The position numbers and the translations under genes are program-made. A DNA stretch of 64,000 nucleotides from Hydra vulgaris (Eukaryota > Cnidaria > Hydrozoa > Anthoathecata > Hydridae). Below the pieces are notes generated by a model. It was not told the DNA's origin. It did no database searches and saw nothing but the letters and a program-made list of their open reading frames with translations. Location: the NCBI RefSeq assembly GCF_038396675.1, contig NC_088926.1, forward strand, positions 11,663,001 through 11,727,000, in the 5' to 3' direction. Positions 35,764-49,500 of this stretch are shown here, piece after piece. Each line of letters opens with the position of its first letter. Position 1 is the stretch's first letter.

Positions 35764-38700
35764 CTCTATATTTTTTAATGAATATGCTTTCTCCACATCC
35801 CAAGGTGGATAGGTTTCAAAAATAACTGCAAGCTGTTCACTCAAACTAAAAAAAATTAAAAAAAAAACTTGTACAAGATTGATATCAAACATTTACTTTT
35901 ATTGTTTTAAACCTTTTGAAAATTACCTTATATCTTCACAAAAATCTTCAATAAAGTCAGATTGACCAAACTCTGGGTAGACAAAGTAACAAGGCCAGTG
36001 AAGCATTTTTCTATCATCTAAATATAACTTCCCACTTTCTGGTTTGTTTAATGTGTTCAAAAGCTGCTCTATATGTTGAGGTGTGGAACCACTTTCGAAA
36101 TTTATTTTGCGAGACTAAAAAAATCAAAAAATAAATTAATAATTATTTAACACCATAATCATACCAGATTATTAACAAAAATACAAAAAACAATGCACAA
36201 ATATGCAAGACAATGACAATATATTATGAGCACAAATAGTTAAAAAACCTTTTGATGAATTTTTTTTAACTTTTTGTCTTGATGAAATTTTAAAAGCTCT
36301 ATCTCTGTTTGTGTGGATAGGATAAGCTTCCAAATGTTCTGAGTACTCTTGTACCTATAACATCAATACAATAGACACAAGCATATTTCTAGCTAGAAGG
36401 TACTTCAATTCGTGTAGCTTGAGAAGGTGGACAATATGAGCTAAATATTAGCTGCTTGGATGTTGGACAACATGAGCTAAATTTTATGTATGTTGATACT
36501 GGTGTAGAATGAGGATGACTTGCAAAAAATTAGGGTAATTGGAGCTAAACCAACCCCGCCCCGACCCCTAACTGCCCCCTTCCTAGAACTACGTGTCCTT
36601 TAATCATAAAAATTGTTTTTTTGTTCTATCATAAACTAGATCAAAATTCATCGACAGATTTCAAATTTCATCAAAAAATCTCTTTTCGTTTAAGATTTAT
36701 AACTATGCAAAGTCTAAAATTACCCCCTGAAATAACTTTAAATGGTCTCAACTTTTAAACGAAAATTTTTTTTTTGATGTAATTTGAAATCTATTGATGA
36801 ATTTTGATCTAGTTTAATATAAAACAAGCAAAAAATTGAAATGTGTTTTTAGAAACAATACCCTAGGGGGGATTCGGGAATCGTTTCGAACACCACAAAA
36901 TCATGCCCATGCCCCTGTATTTAGATTTTCAGAAATGTTTGTAATAGATTTATCAATTTTTTTTTAAAGTTTTTAAAAACGTTTGTTTAACATTGAAATT
37001 TACAGATGAATAAGTAATTTTCATTACTTTTTATTTACATTTTTATTAAAATAAAAACAAAGTAAAGCAACCTTTAAATATTAACAATTAGTAAAAGCTA
37101 GCAGTTGCTAATTGTTAACAGTTGCATAATAACTCCTTGCACGCGTTGATATACGAACTGAAAGCATGTTTATAGCCATTATAATGACATTTGATTGATA
37201 TGACCGAAATATCATGCCAATATTTTCAATCCATATCATAAGTTATTTATTTGAAGCATTCATTTAAAATGCATTAACATGCAAAAGAGCATAGTGATTT
37301 TGTTAAAAAATTTTGCATTTGCTGCTTCAGGAAAAGCAAGGATTTAAGACCAATAAATAATGCTGAAACAACTTATTTAAATCTAAATAAAAAGAAAAAT
37401 GACTACTCAAACCTTATATAAACTATATTCTGGAAAGGTTATTCAGCGGATAACCCTGACCTTCCTACCATGCTTTGCTCAAAATGTAGAAAAAGGCTTG
37501 CAGGGACTGATACTTACTTCATTATGCAGTAGTGTTATGAAGGTAATTATAACTATATTGATGTTTAATTTACTTCAGTTAAAATTTAGTTTCGCTATTT
37601 TAGTTATTATAGCTGCTATACATATGCTATAAAATTTAGACCTGAATACCTGAGTTATTAGAGGGAGAAAATGTGAATGTTTTATTTGTGAAAATGGGCG
37701 CAAATCAAAATTGGAAAAAATATTGGCCCCTATGTTTGAATGTGTGTCGGGAAAACTTGTTTATCAAGGCGCTGAAGATGTTTCAAATAAACCTGCAGAA
37801 AGACTAATTTGTCAAGATTGCTATGCCCAAGTGGGACAAGGAATTCGACATCCCTGTACAAAATTAGAAAGACAAAAGAATTTGACTGCCATTATAAAAT
37901 CAACATCCCCAACAACGCAAGGAAAAGTTCTGCCCAGCTCTATCAAAGATTTCAGCACAAATGACTCAGGGAACACCTTAGCTTTGAAAACTTTTGGTCC
38001 GAAGTAACTCACTATCTCTTTCGGAAAGACTGAGGTTAAGAAACCTTACTTTTCTCTAGACAAATTGAACAAACTTCAATTAAAACTACATTCCAGGTAA
38101 GTTTCTGTTGCTTAAGAATACTTTTAAAAATAAATTAGTTATGAGGTTAAAGCCAATTTTTGTAATAACTTCATTATGATTTCTAAGTAATCGCAACATG
38201 ATTGAAGTTGCATGATTTCTGAGAAGTGAGGCATGACAGAAAAGTGTGGAATCTGGTTTCAATATTAAACTAATTGAGAACAGCGAAATGATTGGAAAAT
38301 TATTCAATTGTGATTAACTCCCAGAATTAAATGAAAACAAAGAGGTAAGTAAACTAATACCAAAAAAAAAAATTTTCATCGTTAGATTGCAATTTGTATC
38401 ATTCATTTTAATTTTTTATGAATGTATAGTTGATAGAAAAAGATACTCCTATTGTGTATTGCAATGACATTGAAGAGCTTGTAGCAATGGTACTTCATCA
38501 CAGAAGTCAAAGAACAAATGATGTTGATAACAAATTAGGAGTAGATGGAGGACAGGGATTCCTTAAAGTTACACTGTCAATAACCCTAAAACTGGAGTTA
38601 AAAAATAATGAAATTCCAGAAAAAACTGATTTATTAATTAAGTAATTTTAAGCTTTGCATGGTTGTAAATCTTAAACGAAAAGAGATTTTTTGATGAAAT

Positions 38701-41700
38701 TTGAAATCTGTCGATGAATTTTGATCTAGTTTATGATAGAACAAAAAAACAATTTTTATGATTAAAGGACACGTAGTTCTAGGAAGGAGGCAGTTAGGGG
38801 TCGGGGCGGGGTTGGTTTAGCTCCAATTACCCTAATTTTTTGCAAGTCATCCTCATTCGACACCAGTATCAACATACTAGAAATTTGAGTATGCTCCATG
38901 CCTCTTAGTTACCTATCTTGAACAACAAAATTCCTTTGTACTCCTCTAAAATATGTGATTTCTCCCAAGGCCCCCCACTAAAAAAAGTTGTGGCTTACAT
39001 TTTTTGAATGAGGAAGTGTTTTCTAATGATAATCAAAAAAAAAATTTCTGGGGATGTGTTGCAAGGTCTTAGAGTATGTTCCTATGCACCGTGATTTGTT
39101 GTTGAGTTTAATGCCTGCTAAAAAATGCATTGATTTAGTTCAAAAAATGCTAATACAGTTTATGCTGAATATGATGAACACATTGCATGTATTACTATTG
39201 ATAGAGCTTTTGTAGCAGAAAGTGGATGTTTAAGTAATTAATGACAAAGAAGACTTTTCCGAATTTTAAGTTGTAATAAAAGAGAAGCATGACTCTATTG
39301 AACTGACTGATCCATTGATGATTGCACCATTAAGAAATTGTTTTGCCATTCTCTGACAAAAAATGAATAAACACTTCAAAAATACATAGTAGATGAATAT
39401 GGTAAAGGCCTTCCACTAAGACTCCAAAACTCGCTGGAGTATCTTACACACAATGCTCCAACGTTTTGTAAAAAATTGAAAAATTGCACTCTCAAGTTGT
39501 TGATCCACTTTGAGCCTAAAATTGAGATAACTGATAAGGAGTTCGATGCAATTTTATGACTTGTTGTTGTTTTATGACCTGTTCCAGTAAACTTAGTTGT
39601 GGAAGCATTGTTCCAAAATAATGCAGCAATGTTGTCAGCTGGTACAACACTATTGTTCATAATAAATAACCATAATAAATAAATACAAATTTAACTGTTA
39701 AGTTGAAAGCTATGTTGGTGCAACAATTCAATGAGTGACGTATAACTTTTCCCAGATTAATACAATATTTGCACAAGGGCCATCAACATTACAAGAATTT
39801 TGATCCAGCGCTATCTTTTGAGCACCTTAGCAAATCAGCCATTGTAAATACCATTGCTCGATGGATGGACTCAATCAGTATATAATCCTCTCCCTTCAAC
39901 CAGTGTTTCTTCTGACAGTGATTCTCTTGACAACACTGTAATTGCTTGTCTATAATAACTTGTCATTGAAAGAAAAGCTTGATATGGTAGTTTTGAATGA
40001 GATTTTCAACTTGTAACAACAGTCACAAAACTGCAATCATCTCTTAAAGATGATACTCTGAATGCCCTATTTTTCTTATGGGCATTTTTTACAAAAGAGA
40101 AAAAAGCAAAAAAAAGAAAGTTTTTTATTTTGATATAAAATAAAAATTGAAATTTTTACAACTAATTTGAGATTTTATTCATATTATAAAATAATTTAAT
40201 TAACGGTATTATACTGGTATTTAAATTATTCAGTACCAAAACACCTTTAAATAATATCGGTATTAGATGCACTACTTCTCATTATACTATCAACATATCT
40301 ATTGAATTTGACTAAAAGACAATCTAGAAAAACAAATTTATAAAACTGATTTTATTTCATAAAGAAATATTAAAAACAAGAAAAATTTTATACCATTATT
40401 CCATCAATTAACTCTTTTCGTTTCTTGATATCTTTAACTGCTCTCATTTCCTTTTTTCGTTGATCTCTTTCTTTTTGTTTCTGGAAAACAATTTATCATT
40501 TTCTATCTAAAAATCATCTTAATTGACTTAAGTTATCTTAAATTTACTTTTATACTTACAATTTGTACATAACATTTTTTTTTTAACTCTATCATCTTTA
40601 AATCATCCTTATCAATGTTTTCGAAATGTTAAGAATAATAAAATCTTAAAACTTAGAATGAATATGAAATACCAAATTTTTCAAAGAGTTAAATTTGCTT
40701 TTCATCAAAAAAACTGAATAATCAACCATTAAATAAAAAATAAAGGTAAACGGTATAGAAACAATTGTTAAACTAACATTTTAGCATGTTTAGTTTTCAG
40801 AAAAAGTACAATAATAACAATAATAAAATAAAAGAAAATTTGACAAACATAGATAAACCTAGTATGAAACAATAAGTCAAGAAACTTTTAAAATTTGCTA
40901 AACCAAAATTTGAAAAAAATCAAACACACTTTAATAAAAGTAAAGTAGAAAAGATATTGCAAGACCTTTGTCACACCATTCAATGCATTCTTTATATTTT
41001 TCCAGATCAAAGCAACATATAGCACCACGAGTAATGGCTTTCTTATGTGAAGAATCAAACTTTAGAGCCCATGTAGCATCCTTAAGAGCACTGCCATTAT
41101 TGCCTAAAAAAACATCAAATTTTTACTAAATTTTATCTAAAAACCTGATTTTTTTTTTTAACTATTTTTTTAATTAACTAAAAATTTAATCCTGAATATT
41201 ATACCTATTATATAAATATACTTTATGTAATCTAACTAGTGTTGTAGAATCAAGCATTAGTATGAATGAATTGCAGAAAACTTTAGATTTATACTTTATA
41301 CGGATGTAAAACTTTTTGACAGTGTTCAGAAAGTTGTTAGAATTTATGTCGAGAATAAAAACAAAATTTATCAATCTTATAATTGAAGAAAGAGGTATTG
41401 CTAATTTAAATTTAATAGTAAAAATATCAATTGAGGTCAAACCTTTTTAAAGGTTATCAATGTTTTGATAAACCTTTAAAAAGGTTTGACCTCAATGATC
41501 CCAAAAAAATCATTATTCTTTATCTGAAATATAGATCAACTTGTTCAAGATCTTTGATTCAAGATCTTTTGTCCTAAGATTGTGAAAACTTGATTGGTGA
41601 AACTTCTCTTTTTGTTTTTCACTTACATTTCCAAAATTTTTGGGAAACAGCCTTATTTTGATTTTATGATCACAAAAAACTTAAAACAACTACTTTTACT

Positions 41701-42922: not shown

Positions 42923-45900
42923 TATAACAACAATAACAATGACAATAATAATATAATCACCAGCAAAACTCATTACAAAAACATCATTTTATATTATTTT
43001 GAAATTTTTTTAATTATGGCCACTTGTTTAAGGTTTTGAACAACTTTAGCAAAGAAGTTAATTGACATGTAATTATAATTGTAAATATGAGTGAAAACAT
43101 GTAACTATTGGTTTTTTTGTAAATCATAACAGTTACCAAAATTGAGATTCAAAGATAGAACAGCCAAATTTAATCTCACAATGAGCAAATAGGTTACTTT
43201 TGCTGTGTGGTAAAAAAGATAAAATAATCAAGATCTCTTAAATATTATGTTTAACACCAGCTAAAGAAAAAAAATTAAAATATAAAAAAAAATCTGTAAA
43301 AAAAACAAATCAAAATTACTAAAATAAGTTTCTATATTTAGAATTATAAGGTAGTGTCACTATTGAATTGTCAAACAGTAGAAATTGAATACGTAATTGT
43401 ATTTTACAGTTTCAGTTACATTTTAAGAACAAGAGTGACAACAGTATTAGTTGCAAATGCATGTGGTGATAACTTTAAATGTTTCTTTTTCCAGGAAAAA
43501 TATTTTTTATTACTGTATTTGTGATGCACCTTTATGATGAAGCTTTACTAGATTCTTTTACAAGGCAGAACATCATTTCCAATTTTGAAGTAAAAAGAAT
43601 AATATCTCTATATAACATCTACACATTTTTTTTTTAATTTAAGTTTATTCGTTTCCCCAAGGCAGAGAAGACCATTAAAGACGAGGAGGCTACTTAATTG
43701 TGGTTATAACCCTTTCTTAACTCTATAACTTCGAAAACAAACATTGATAAACAAAGCCGCTGCGCGGAGAAACAAAGTGAGCACGGTACTACCTGGGAAG
43801 TGGTGGGGATTGAACTCACAACCTCTCGCTTATGAAGTGAGCGCTCTACCACTACACCCCCTACTGCATTTACATACTGAACATCCAGCACCTCAGTTTT
43901 TAGGTAACAACTTGAGGTGCTGGATGCTAGTATATTAGCTTTAATGGAATTCAATCAACCACATGGTTAATTTGAAACACTCTATAACTTTTAATGGTAT
44001 TGTTAAAACTTTTTCTTGGAATTGCAAAATCCCTACCAAAAGCTTAGGAAAGAAATGTTCACTATATCAGAGAAAATTAATCAGAAAAAGAAATTAATTT
44101 TATAAATGGAAAGTTCTAAAATACTGCTACTAGGCATAAAAAAATTATCTTATGTTATTTGGTTTGTTTTTAATACCTGTTTCTTTCTTAATGAAAATTG
44201 ATTGCAAAAATATTGTTACTGGATTTTAGTTGTTATTAAAGATTTTTTTAAAAATTTTTGTTGAACATTAGTTTTTGTTGAACATTGTTTTTTTACTTGT
44301 GTTTTTATTTAAATATAGAAAGCACTGCGTTTTAAAATCCAAAAAACAGAAATCAAATTTCCTGAAATTTTTGTGGCTTTTCCTAAACTAATTTATTGTT
44401 TATCAACTAAGAAAACTTTTTATCAAAAAAACAATAAAGAATTTAATTAAATAATAAGTACTTCCTCAGTCTTTTTTAAAACAACCTTTTTATTGCCTAA
44501 ATAAAATGAAGAAAAAATTTTGTTTTTTTCTTTATCAGATACCTGTCAGCCATATATATTTGAAGCCTGTTATTATCTCTTATTTGAAGCCTGTAAATTC
44601 TTATCTCTTATTTGAAATCAGTAATCTTTTGTGAACTTGTAAGTTCTGTTTATCTGTCAAACAGAAGTCAAAACTTCTAAAATTGTGTATATAAAGAAGT
44701 GTAGTAAAGTAAAGTGATACAAAAGTAAAGTAAAGTCTTTCAAAAGTATTGCAGTTCAATAAAAATACTTCTGGGTTTATAAATATTTTCTTTTTGTTAC
44801 TATTCCTTTATTATAAATATAAATATTATGTGAAACAATATAAATTACAGACTAACTCATAATCTTTCTAAAGACTCTGCAAAGAGTATACTTTTTTTTA
44901 TTGGATTGTTACAACTTGCCCTTTTTATTGCTGACATTTGCTTTTTAGCGTTAGTTTCAACTTAAGCCACCCTTTTTTTCAATTTAATTATACTTTGTAG
45001 AGTAACTTAGTTTTATTTTATAATAATGATGGATTAATAAATGTTTAAGATTTTATATTTGTAATTTTGCCCTTCAAATTTTACTCTGCAAATTTTACCC
45101 CTCAAGAAAAGAGCCTAAAATCTAGAAAACTCAAAAGAAAAAAAAAGTTGTAACTCTAATTAAGGAGATTATTGCCTTAACCTTCATAGCTTTATCATTT
45201 CCTATAATGACAGCTGCTTTAGTGTTGGTTTTTTAATTTTATTTTTGAGAGATAGATGGTTGTCAAGCTACTCTTTCTTTAACAAATAGTACAAATAAGT
45301 TACGATTTTAGTACGGTAGATTACCACTATAGCAAAGGCAAGGAGATTTAATAAAGCTGCTAGACTAGATCCTTCATCTAAGCAAAATCTTAAAGTAGAG
45401 TGGTAGTCGGTATTGTCTAGTCATTTTTTACTTTGCAATTTAAACTCGATTGGAAGACATATTTTACAAAGCACATATATATGTTTTCATTAATTTAAGG
45501 AACTGCTTTACTGCTTTTAAGTGTCAGGTAAGAGTAAAAATTATAAAATCAAAACAAGTTTATTACAGAACATCTCTGCCAATCATTGTATTATTACATC
45601 TAATTTCAAAAAGCACTTTATTGACACATTAAAAGCACTTTATTGACACGTTAAAAGCACTTTATTGACACATTGAACGCATTTTACTGACACATTAAAA
45701 GCATATTATTGATACATTACGTATGTAATGTATCAATAATATGCTTTTAATGTGTCATCTAATTTCAAAAAGCACTTTATTGACACATTAAAAGCACATT
45801 ATTGACACATTAAAAGCACATTACTAACACATCAAAAGCACATTATTGACACATTAAAAGCACATTACTGACACATCAAAAGCACATTATTGACACATTA

Positions 45901-48900: not shown

Positions 48901-49500
48901 CATTAAATCTAAATTTACCTAAATAAAAATGACAAGCTGCACGATTTGTATAAAGAATAGCATATAGATTTTTATTTTCGTGTTTCTGTCGAAGTCCTTC
49001 ACTATACGCAATAATGGCTTTTTTATATTCTTTCCTTTGAAAACAGTAGTTTCCGTCATCTTTATGAGCTACAGCACATGCTAAAATTAATTAAATAGAA
49101 ATTAATCAATAGAATAAAAAACAATTTTAACCTTTATAAAAACTATAAAAAATATTTTTAAAGAAAAAAACCTTCAGGGTCATCACATTCATATTTTAAT
49201 GCTTGAAGAGCTTGTAAAGCAGGCGAAGCATCTATGTCTTCCTGTGTGGGAGCCTCTTTAGAGAAGGCAGGAATCAGACGAAGTTGCTAAAAAACAGTAA
49301 CACTTTGCAGAACTTAATTACCTGAAGCAACATAAACTTTATTAAATCTTATATACCTCATCTAACCTGTCAGGATCCAAACCATCTTTATATTTAAATC
49401 CTTTATTTTTTTCCAAAATATTTTGAATATGCTGATCGAGATCTTTGTCAAGTTTTTGAGCAAGTTCTTCACGAGATTTTACTTGGTCTGGAACATCCAT
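35764..49500 (-). CDS. TTC4: Tetratricopeptide repeat protein 4, Hsp90 co-chaperone (partial, spliced)
   Basis: Minus-strand exons: 49500-49357, 49286-49172, 49080-48919, 41103-40958, 40616-40560, 40480-40394, 36354-36271 (tentative), 36114-35927, 35845-35764. Apart from the tentative one, all junction phases fit. Exon 1 starts at the ATG of MDVPDQVKSREELAQ, and KNKGFKYKDGLDPDRLDE matches the TTC4/Dpit47 N-terminus. The TPR domain follows: KDDGNYCF, ILYTNRAACHFYLG and KKAITRGAICCF give the K-N / N / K-R carboxylate clamp that binds Hsp90/Hsp70 EEVD tails. A basic helix (KQKERDQRKKEMR) follows, then the wheel domain (LHWPCYFVYPEFGQSDFI, AVIFETYPPWDVEKAY). The final exon(s) were not found. Introns 3 and 6 hold SINE, LINE, MITE and TIR elements. 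TTC4 is a cytosolic/nuclear co-chaperone. Confidence 0.93.
36249..36354 (-). CDS. TTC4: Candidate TTC4 exon 7 (ambiguous frame)
   Basis: An open block follows an acceptor (TTATAG at about 36355). If it starts at 36354 in phase 0, the frame includes NRDRAFKISSRQKVKK, resembling the RAIKFDDQKVGKK stretch of insect TTC4. It must then use the weak donor GTTAAA (exon 36354-36271) to stay in phase. If it starts at 36347 and uses GTTTTTTA at 36248, a different frame (STQNIWKLILSTQ) also keeps phase. I prefer the first. This linker is poorly conserved in the family, so the exon could be wrong. Confidence 0.4.
36488..38877 (+). mobile_element. DNA element with 225-bp terminal inverted repeats
   Basis: The left arm 36488-36712 and right arm 38653-38877 are near-perfect inverse copies with outer ends GTATGTTGATACTGG. 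They include a C-rich block (CCCCGCCCCGACCCCTAACTG). Just inside the left arm (36756-36840) an extra, more diverged inverted copy of part of the arm makes a foldback. The interior carries a spliced, broken cysteine-rich coding region on the plus strand. It sits in TTC4 intron 6, antisense to the gene. No superfamily is recognised. The TSD is at most the dinucleotide TA. Confidence 0.85.
37440..38645 (+). pseudogene. Unnamed transposon protein: Cys-rich N-terminus and DGG motif
   Basis: Plus-strand blocks, in order: DNPDLPTMLCSKCRKRLAGT (about 37447-37510); a block with CECFIC, then CQDCYAQVGQGIRHPC and TKLERQKNLTAIIKS (37640-38007). After a TAA the frame continues (FGKTEVKKPYFSLDKL) to a donor CATTCCAG/GTAAGT at 38096. 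A degraded block follows (FNIKLIENSEMIGKLFNCD, about 38240-38305). A last exon (38430-38645) holds TPIVYCNDIEELVAMVL then KLGVDGGQGFLKVTLSI. Four CxxC/H pairs suggest zinc binding. The aspartate of GVDGGQGF could be a catalytic or structural acid of an RNase H-like fold (inference). The protein stops just before the right TIR, so the element is internally deleted. Confidence 0.55.
38900..39970 (+). pseudogene. Degenerate coding remnant, family unknown
   Basis: Adjacent to the TIR element's right end, plus-strand fragments such as HDSIELTDPLMIAPLRNCF (about 39290-39350), VDEYGKGLPLRLQNSLEYL then KKLKNCTLKLLIHFEPKIEI (39391-39545) and FEHLSKSAIVNTIARWMDS (39818-39880) look protein-like but carry stops and shifts. 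I do not recognise the family. It may be another decayed transposon in the same TTC4 intron. Confidence 0.35.
40617..40957 (-). other. TTC4: Putative U12-type AT-AC intron of TTC4 (intron 4)
   Basis: On the minus strand the upstream exon ends ...WCDKGLA and the intron starts ATATCTTTTC, one change from the minor-spliceosome consensus ATATCCTTT. The intron ends TATTCTTAACATTTCGAAAAC. TTCTTAAC fits the U12 branch-point consensus TTCCTTAAC, with the branch A 12 nt from the terminal AC. Joining at these borders is phase 0/0 and yields KGLAIDKDDLKMIELKKK, collinear with human TTC4. No GT-AG pair in the interval keeps the frame. Confidence 0.85.
41431..41495. repeat. Inverted repeat, about 30-bp arms, 4-nt loop
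   Basis: TTGAGGTCAAACCTTTTTAA... and its complement differ only by one indel. It lies in TTC4 intron 3. Confidence 0.92.
42888..42960. repeat. (AAT)n microsatellite
   Basis: An AATAATAAT run grades into imperfect AACAAT units. It lies in TTC4 intron 3. Confidence 0.9.
43627..43868 (-). mobile_element. tRNA-derived SINE
   Basis: Read on the minus strand, the head GTGTAGTGGTAGAGCGCTCA (A box TGGTAGAGCGC) and GGTTGTGAGTTCAATCCCC (B box AGTTCAATCCC) match a tRNA body. The anticodon-loop-like CTTCATAAG suggests a CAT-type, Met-like ancestor. A unique body (CCGCGCAGCGGCTTTG, GAAGTTATAGAGTTAAGAAA) follows and the element ends in an A-rich tail (T tract at 43627-43635 on the plus strand). It sits in TTC4 intron 3, in the same orientation as the gene. 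Its body is the source of the 162-bp tandem array at 29.4 kb. Confidence 0.9.
43882..43926. repeat. Inverted repeat, 14-bp perfect arms
   Basis: CATCCAGCACCTCA / TGAGGTGCTGGATG, immediately 5' of the SINE head. Confidence 0.8.
45608..46020. repeat. 22-bp minisatellite with an inverted segment
   Basis: The unit AAAAGCACATTATTGACACATT (TTTA/ATTA variants) recurs about 17 times. From 45725 to 45756 the array runs in the opposite orientation. It then restarts with TCTAATTTCAAAAAGCACTT, a repeat of its own left boundary at 45599. It lies in TTC4 intron 3. Confidence 0.95.
45689..45756. repeat. Perfect inverted repeat, 32-bp arms, 4-nt loop
   Basis: 45689-45720 and 45725-45756 are exact complements around GTAT. 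The arms are minisatellite units. Confidence 0.96.
47253..47845. mobile_element. CpG-rich hAT-type MITE with 8-bp TSD
   Basis: GATGATCA at 47245-47252 is repeated at 47846-47853. The ends (CA)GGGCTTGTGATGAAG and CTTCATCACAAGCCCTG are inverse copies. Both subterminal zones are packed with CGAGCG/CGCTCG/GCGCGATCGC motifs, striking in this AT-rich DNA. There is no coding frame. Comparison with the LINE copy at 1530-1560 gives the empty site. Confidence 0.85.
47894..47938. repeat. Inverted repeat, 18-20-bp arms, 8-nt loop
   Basis: CAAGGTACATTAGAAGTT pairs with AACTTCTAATATACCTTG with one mismatch. It lies within the LINE copy. Confidence 0.88.

Follow-up and report, generated by a model that had tools for sequence, protein, structure and literature searches.

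A U12-Type AT-AC Intron Predicted in the TTC4 Gene of Hydra and an Altered U6atac Gene in the Same Genome

The TTC4 Gene and Its Identity

The window, that is, the whole 64-kb stretch of DNA analyzed here (28.0% GC), carries on its minus strand a gene for the co-chaperone TTC4/Cns1, the eight exons of which can be read through as a single open frame of 327 codons, free of stops. These exons are listed below with the introns and splice signals discussed in the following sections.

49357..49500, minus strand: TTC4 exon 1, with the ATG at 49500
49172..49286, minus strand: TTC4 exon 2
48919..49080, minus strand: TTC4 exon 3
40958..41103, minus strand: TTC4 exon 4, ending in WCDKGLA
40560..40616, minus strand: TTC4 exon 5, IDKDDLKMIELKKKCYVQI, 19 residues starting with IDKDDLK
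40394..40480, minus strand: TTC4 exon 6
35927..36114, minus strand: TTC4 exon 7, in which the Wheel domain begins
35764..35845, minus strand: TTC4 exon 8, in which the Wheel domain goes on
40617..40957, minus strand: TTC4 intron 4, predicted U12-type AT-AC intron, 341 nt, phase 0, 20.5% GC
40948..40957, minus strand: putative U12-type 5' splice site ATATCTTTTC, with one difference from ATATCCTT (T at +6)
40628..40635, minus strand: putative U12-type branch site TTCTTAAC, with one difference from TCCTTAAC
40617..40618, minus strand: 3' splice site AC
40481..40559, minus strand: TTC4 intron 5, an ordinary U2-type intron (GTAAGT..CAG) used for comparison

Membership of TTC4 is judged by the combination of TPR and the Wheel domain PF18972, and the eight-exon model contains both. 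Pfam searches returned TPR_1 at 45.8 bits and PF18972 at 45.1 bits against a cut-off of 27, the latter over profile positions 4-61 of 114 (58 of 114); PF25060 matched marginally, at 27.7 bits for a cut-off of 27. Among the 55 PDB sequences matching the model, the top one is the TPR protein SPAG1 (9hb4, E 2.3e-17), and others are CNS1 (6hft, E 2.1e-14) and 6hfo, named 'Tetratricopeptide repeat protein 4' (E 2.5e-12), which covers the Wheel part of the model. Additional TTC4 exons 3' of exon 8 were not found in the 64-kb window, so the model is incomplete at its C end.

A search of the genome (911,502,276 bases in 15 contigs) gave nine matches to TTC4, seven of them strong and all seven lying within the TTC4 gene of the window; the remaining two are weak, one being a TPR on contig C6 (E 0.001) and the other lying inside TTC4. 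On these matches TTC4/Cns1 is a single-copy gene, and the idea that the signal stems from a paralogue or a retrocopy was rejected because every strong match is the TTC4 of the window. The raw six-frame search of the genome with PF18972 returned no match, probably because introns break up the domain.

Two of the TTC4 introns harbor other elements. Intron 6 contains, at 36479-38886, a 2.4-kb element with 245-nt inverted arms that are 96% complementary, which looks like a DNA transposon, and intron 3 has a tRNA match on the minus strand at 43795-43861 (33.6 bits, gathering score 29), which may represent a genuine tRNA gene or else a repeat of tRNA origin.

Borders That Keep the TTC4 Frame

The first-pass annotation of this DNA had placed an AT-AC intron at 40617..40957 with the borders GCA/...ATT, and the minus-strand sequence confirms it, for the borders read GCA/ATATCTTTTC (from 40957 downwards) ... 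TTCTTAACATTTCGAAAAC/ATT and enclose 341 nt. It had also held this pair to be the only one that keeps the TTC4 frame, which is wrong as written, because full enumeration within the tested ranges yields 1,358 pairs that stay in frame and contain no stop (1 GT-AG, 3 GC-AG, 4 AT-AC, 6 AT-AG, 2 GT-AC, the remainder ending otherwise). What stands is a narrower statement, namely that 40957/40617 is alone among pairs with GT-AG, GC-AG or AT-AC ends in leaving the residue count unchanged. Eight neighboring offsets preserve this count, with alignment scores of 191-192, and 40957/40617 is the only one of them with GT-AG, GC-AG or AT-AC ends; one of the other seven, 40955/40615, has AT-AT ends and a 5' end, ATCTTTTCTA, that is not U12-like.

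The borders could nevertheless lie elsewhere, either as a U2-type intron with GT-AG ends (40965/40589, the sole frame-keeping GT-AG pair) or GC-AG ends, which would leave TTC4 with 4-12 residues fewer, or as an AT-AG intron sharing the same 5' site. Frame-keeping pairs for all of these are available (one GT-AG, three GC-AG and six AT-AG), and AT-AG is described in a passage of PMC8280824 as a known, rarer subtype of minor introns. The alternative joins, however, drop conserved residues: in alignments with a provisional human TTC4 sequence, the 40957/40617 join scores 191, against 149 for GT-AG, 157-176 for GC-AG, 132-171 for the three other AT-AC pairs and 160-174 for the three AT-AG pairs that combine the 5' site of 40957 with AG ends within exon 5. 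In Pfam the 40957/40617 join reaches 39.9 bits for TPR_1, whereas five others (one GT-AG, three GC-AG and one AT-AC join, with the AT-AG joins left out) reach 31.9, 35.5, 34.4, 33.8 and 35.8 bits, the GT-AG and GC-AG joins spanning 31.9-35.5. Moreover, the GT-AG donor AAG/GTCTTG and the acceptors inside coding sequence look poor by eye, and GT-AG or GC-AG borders would turn the U12 signals described below into a coincidence with a chance of about 2e-6. Other GT-AG, GC-AG, AT-AC and AT-AG borders were thus rejected on alignment score, five of them also on TPR_1, and we consider a different placement of the borders very unlikely.

The same data bear on the possibility that a small additional exon lies within 40617-40957, so that two ordinary introns would imitate one AT-AC intron. 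With the 40957/40617 join, the top TPR_1 stretch (profile positions 8-34 of 34) crosses the join and has no space for additional residues, whereas for the five alternative joins the top stretch listed is the preceding repeat; the provisional human TTC4 sequence likewise aligns over the join of exons 4 and 5. A hidden exon appears, on this basis, extremely improbable.

Signals of the Minor Spliceosome in Intron 4

The AT-AC termini of intron 4, which agree with both frame and homology, are accompanied by the two signals that the first-pass annotation had reported, and the fit of both is borne out with one mismatch each to the consensus. According to a passage of PMC2846911, the rule for U12-type 5' sites is RTATCCTT with T allowed at one of the two Cs; the sequence of intron 4, ATATCTTT, obeys it, its single difference lying at +6. 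Near the 3' end, TTCTTAAC is the TCCTTAAC-like branch site expected of a U12-type intron, its likely branch A being 40629, 12 nt from the final intron base. The pairing of this site with the U12 of the same genome is calculated at -4.0 kcal/mol, versus -9.8 for the consensus branch site. U12-type introns generally have no polypyrimidine tract ahead of the 3' site. In intron 4, 12 of the 20 nt before the terminal dinucleotide are pyrimidines, compared with 10-18 in the six other introns of the gene, all of which are GT-AG and have 3-4 mismatches to each U12 signal.

Both sites were also scored against chance. Counting both strands of the window, AT 5' sites with at most one mismatch to ATATCCTT occur at 66 of 127,800 positions and AC preceded at 8-22 nt by a branch site with at most one mismatch from TCCTTAAC at 49 of 127,800, each count containing the intron 4 site itself. 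For the eight offsets, the joint chance that both occur is 1.6e-6, or 2.2e-6 when GT-AG U12 pairs are added (hence about 2e-6), and multiplying by the seven introns of the model gives about 1.5e-5.

The rarity of AT-AC introns, which had been stressed initially, stands when all introns are considered but not within the minor class, since about 26% of human minor introns are AT-AC according to the part of PMC10639083 that treats them. The same source, in part, gives phase 0 as uncommon among minor introns (22% on average) and as their least usual phase in animals and plants.

Being AT-AC is not in itself a proof of minor splicing, given that AT-AC introns of U2 type exist, for example in sodium channel genes (PMC2831892, in the portion describing them), and the unusual U6atac of this genome (see below) would also count towards removal of the TTC4 intron by the major (U2) spliceosome. 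The U2-type examples covered there have G at +5, whereas intron 4 has C at +5 followed by a U11-type extension and carries a U12 branch site at the right distance. The U2-type class was therefore rejected for intron 4, and its removal by the major spliceosome is in our judgment highly improbable.

Minor snRNA Genes and an Altered U6atac

The genes for the four snRNAs specific to the minor spliceosome, which the first-pass annotation had proposed to look for, are all present in the genome, with U4atac just under its gathering score in Rfam.

C3:23990172-23990323: U12, 88 bits
C12:80632577-80632709: U11, 97.4 bits
C12:9139923-9140049: U6atac, 90.2 bits
C4:25960599-25960721: U4atac, 52.4 bits (gathering score 53)

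U11 starts with GAAAAGGG versus the consensus AAAAAGGG, with G for A at position 1 as the only difference in eight bases, and could base-pair with CUUUUC in the 5' site of the TTC4 intron. The branch-binding stretch of U12, GUAAGGAAAAU, is unaltered, and its first bases are UAGCC versus AUGCC in the consensus (the U12 start being taken from Rfam). Between CGUCCUUAUCGAG of U4atac and CUCGAUAAGGACG of U6atac an unbroken stem of 13 bp can be formed, in which both partners depart from the consensus.

The start of U6atac, as predicted from the gene, reads GUGUUGUAUGAGCCGAGAG, and its 5'-site-pairing stretch has changed from GAAAGGAGAGAAGG to GAGCCGAGAGCCGG; comparison of GAGCCGAGAGCCGGUUAGCA with the Rfam consensus GAAAGGAGAGAAGGUUAGCA places the changes at positions 12-14 (AAG to GCC) and 20-21 (AA to CC). 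In 1998 Incorvaia and Padgett reportedly found that the pairing of U6atac with the 5' splice site is required for minor splicing in human cells. A passage of PMC4980772 states that GG14/15 of human U6atac pair with CC5/6 of the 5' site, as suppressor mutations show.

The altered gene appears to be the only U6atac of the genome. A DNA search matched nothing but the gene itself, the Rfam search (46 of 28,207 first-look candidates scored) gave one match, and a scan with the 23-base Rfam consensus allowing up to three mismatches hit two places, neither of which has U6atac sequence downstream. A second, canonical gene was rejected on the DNA search and the consensus scan. By eye, the flanks show a TATA-like stretch upstream and a T run at the RNA end. 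Judged by these features, by the searches for a second gene and by the U4atac stem, the altered gene looks like the working copy. U6atac has been reported from Hydractinia genomes by Rfam search, the relevant passage of PMC11067881 giving no sequence. Among the hits listed from the open-licence literature, judged by titles and abstract beginnings, we found nothing on a minor intron in TTC4 or on this form of U6atac, which is an unexpected finding and worth more than the intron itself.

Other U12-Type Introns in the Genome

Exons of the kinases ERK, JNK and p38 were located with provisional human protein sequences and their borders then read. All three genes have a U12-type GT-AG intron at the FPGxx position.

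ERK, contig C10: GTATCTTTTT...TGCTTAACATTACAAAG, 1,753 nt, the join giving FPGKHYLDQL
JNK, contig C4: GTATCTTTTT...TCTTTAACTTGTAACTCTAAATAG
p38, contig C14: GTATCTTTTC...TTCTTAACTAATTTTCAAG

All four U12 introns found (TTC4, ERK, JNK and p38) combine C at +5 with T at +6, and none of them has the exact branch octamer TCCTTAAC. Pairing of the kinase branch sites with the U12 of the genome is weak as well, at -5.2 kcal/mol for p38, -6.6 for JNK and -3.3 for ERK, against the -9.8 of the consensus. By our own count in a passage of PMC2846911, 11 rule-obeying introns of Trichinella comprise two with T at +6, four with T at +5 and five with CC. The comparison of 4 of 4 with 2 of 11 for T at +6 (Fisher P = 0.011) is only a hint, because the kinase introns share an ancestor, Trichinella is far removed and the genome under study is rich in AT.

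Searches for further cases were largely negative. A genome-wide scan with the pattern TATCNTTTN{40,70}TTCCTTAAC for short U12 introns of strict consensus gave 66 matches versus 99 with the reversed pattern, hence no excess, and many of the 66 are alike and so derive from repeat families. Thirty of them, fifteen lying in plus orientation, were re-read on both strands, nine having A or G at +1 and none being convincing by eye (in the nearest candidate AC follows just 7 nt past the branch A); the other 36 were seen as matched strings alone. A repeat family of the form TATCTTTTATAAATTGGAATCATC...GATATGTTCCTTAAC mimics U12 signals many times and constitutes a trap for pattern-based intron scans.

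A table of PMC2831892 includes PHB2 and STX6 among the genes that have AT-AC U12 introns in fly and human. In Hydra, the readable residues 1-284 of PHB2 contain one intron, which is GT-AG and without U12 signals, and residues 3-120 of STX6 form a single exon with a GTAAGT donor and no U12 intron in the part read. Three copies of PHB2 (C6:22.80M, C12:86.6M and C6:0.405M) show no U12 intron in the stretch read; the third has two in-frame stops with the intron kept, and looks like a pseudogene. Likewise, no U12 sites were seen at the exon borders of SNRPE or, under partial coverage, at the readable borders of NLK, an ERK-like gene, KCMF1, NAA60 and LSM12, while TRAPPC2 gave no match in the genome and a p38 paralogue stretch gave no matching exon. 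The set of minor introns in the Hydra genome may thus be reduced.

Interpretation: A Probable Minor Intron and a Possible Shift of Register

The signals and their spacing, the homology over the join, the single-copy frame and the four snRNA genes together support the initial reading of 40957-40617 (minus strand), which is very probably a U12-type AT-AC intron, spliced by the minor spliceosome, of the single-copy TTC4/Cns1 co-chaperone gene. As such, it adds one ordinary case to a known class of introns. Counting against this reading are its phase 0, the mismatch in each site, the weak pairing of its branch site with U12 and of its 5' site with U6atac, the genome-wide scan with its lack of excess for short U12 introns of strict consensus, and the absence of U12 introns from the readable parts of PHB2 and STX6. 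We infer its splicing from the DNA in the following terms. U11 would pair with the TTC4 5' site (CUUUUC against its own end GAAAAG), U12 would form base pairs with TTCTTAAC that leave its branch A bulged, and U11 would then give way to the U4atac/U6atac.U5 particle, with U6atac holding the 5' site; exon 5 with its 19 residues would be joined in frame, completing the third TPR. The order of steps from U11/U12 to U4atac/U6atac.U5 is that of textbooks, as also given in part of PMC4980772.

The last of these contacts is the one affected by the altered U6atac. In the known register, C14 and C13 would lie opposite +6 and +7 and thus face U6 and U7 of the 5' site, so that the usual pairing is absent and only a slipped pairing of 4 bp (-2.1 kcal/mol) is found. 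Deprived of its pairing partners for +6 to +8, this U6atac would recognize the 5' site either more weakly or with a shift of two bases, in which case G15 A16 G17 A18 would pair with U7 U6 C5 U4. Such a shifted pairing is possible only if +6 is U, and T is present there in each of the four introns found. The departure from the known pairing is one of the machinery, is common to the ERK, JNK and p38 introns and does not by itself remove the TTC4 intron from its class.

Calculated energies are small on this point. The altered U6atac gives -2.1 kcal/mol with each of the four own 5' sites and -1.7, in another register, with the CC consensus, versus -3.9 to -5.5 kcal/mol for the consensus U6atac with the four own sites; the shifted register is thus compatible with the data rather than strongly predicted by them. 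U11 offers no reason for U at +6, since it differs only at position 1 in its first eight bases, and its pairing (-3.9 to -5.5 kcal/mol on the four sites, -5.5 on the CC consensus) gains nothing from that U. Pairing of UAGCC of U12 with GGUUA of U6atac is calculated at -5.3 kcal/mol, equal to that of the consensus pair (-5.3), which hints at a parallel change in U12.

It is conceivable, though on balance doubtful, that the minor spliceosome of this lineage has been re-tuned, with U6atac shifted by two bases and the start of U12 perhaps moved along with it. If this were true, the AT-AC intron of TTC4 would be a surviving intron in line with the new rule at +6. A U6atac altered in the stretch that pairs with the 5' site sits in a genome that retains U12-type introns and the remaining minor snRNAs. 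Either a far weaker U6atac pairing than has been assumed suffices for minor splicing, or snRNA and introns have changed together, and Hydra makes the question directly testable.

Comparison with Known Systems

The window gene has the order of TTC4/Cns1, the Hsp90 co-chaperone in which TPR are followed by the Wheel domain, and differs from it in the C-terminal exons past exon 8, which were not found in the window. The U6atac gene matches the whole Rfam model RF00619, with the 3' stem-loop, UUAGCA and the stem pairing with U4atac kept, and departs from it at positions 12-14 and 20-21. With the ERK, JNK and p38 introns the TTC4 intron has in common the extended 5' site with T at +6, and the branch octamer of the p38 intron is identical to its TTCTTAAC; the kinase introns differ in being GT-AG, in their phase 1 (from the translated join for ERK, by eye for JNK and p38) and in sharing one position within a gene family. 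Compared with the AT-AC introns of PHB2, STX6, SLC9A7, KCMF1 and others in the fly/human table of PMC2831892, the TTC4 intron shares their ends, an extended TATCYTT 5' site and a TTAAC branch site near the 3' end, whereas it lies in another gene and position, has T at +6 and phase 0, and carries TTCTTAAC instead of TCCTTAAC.
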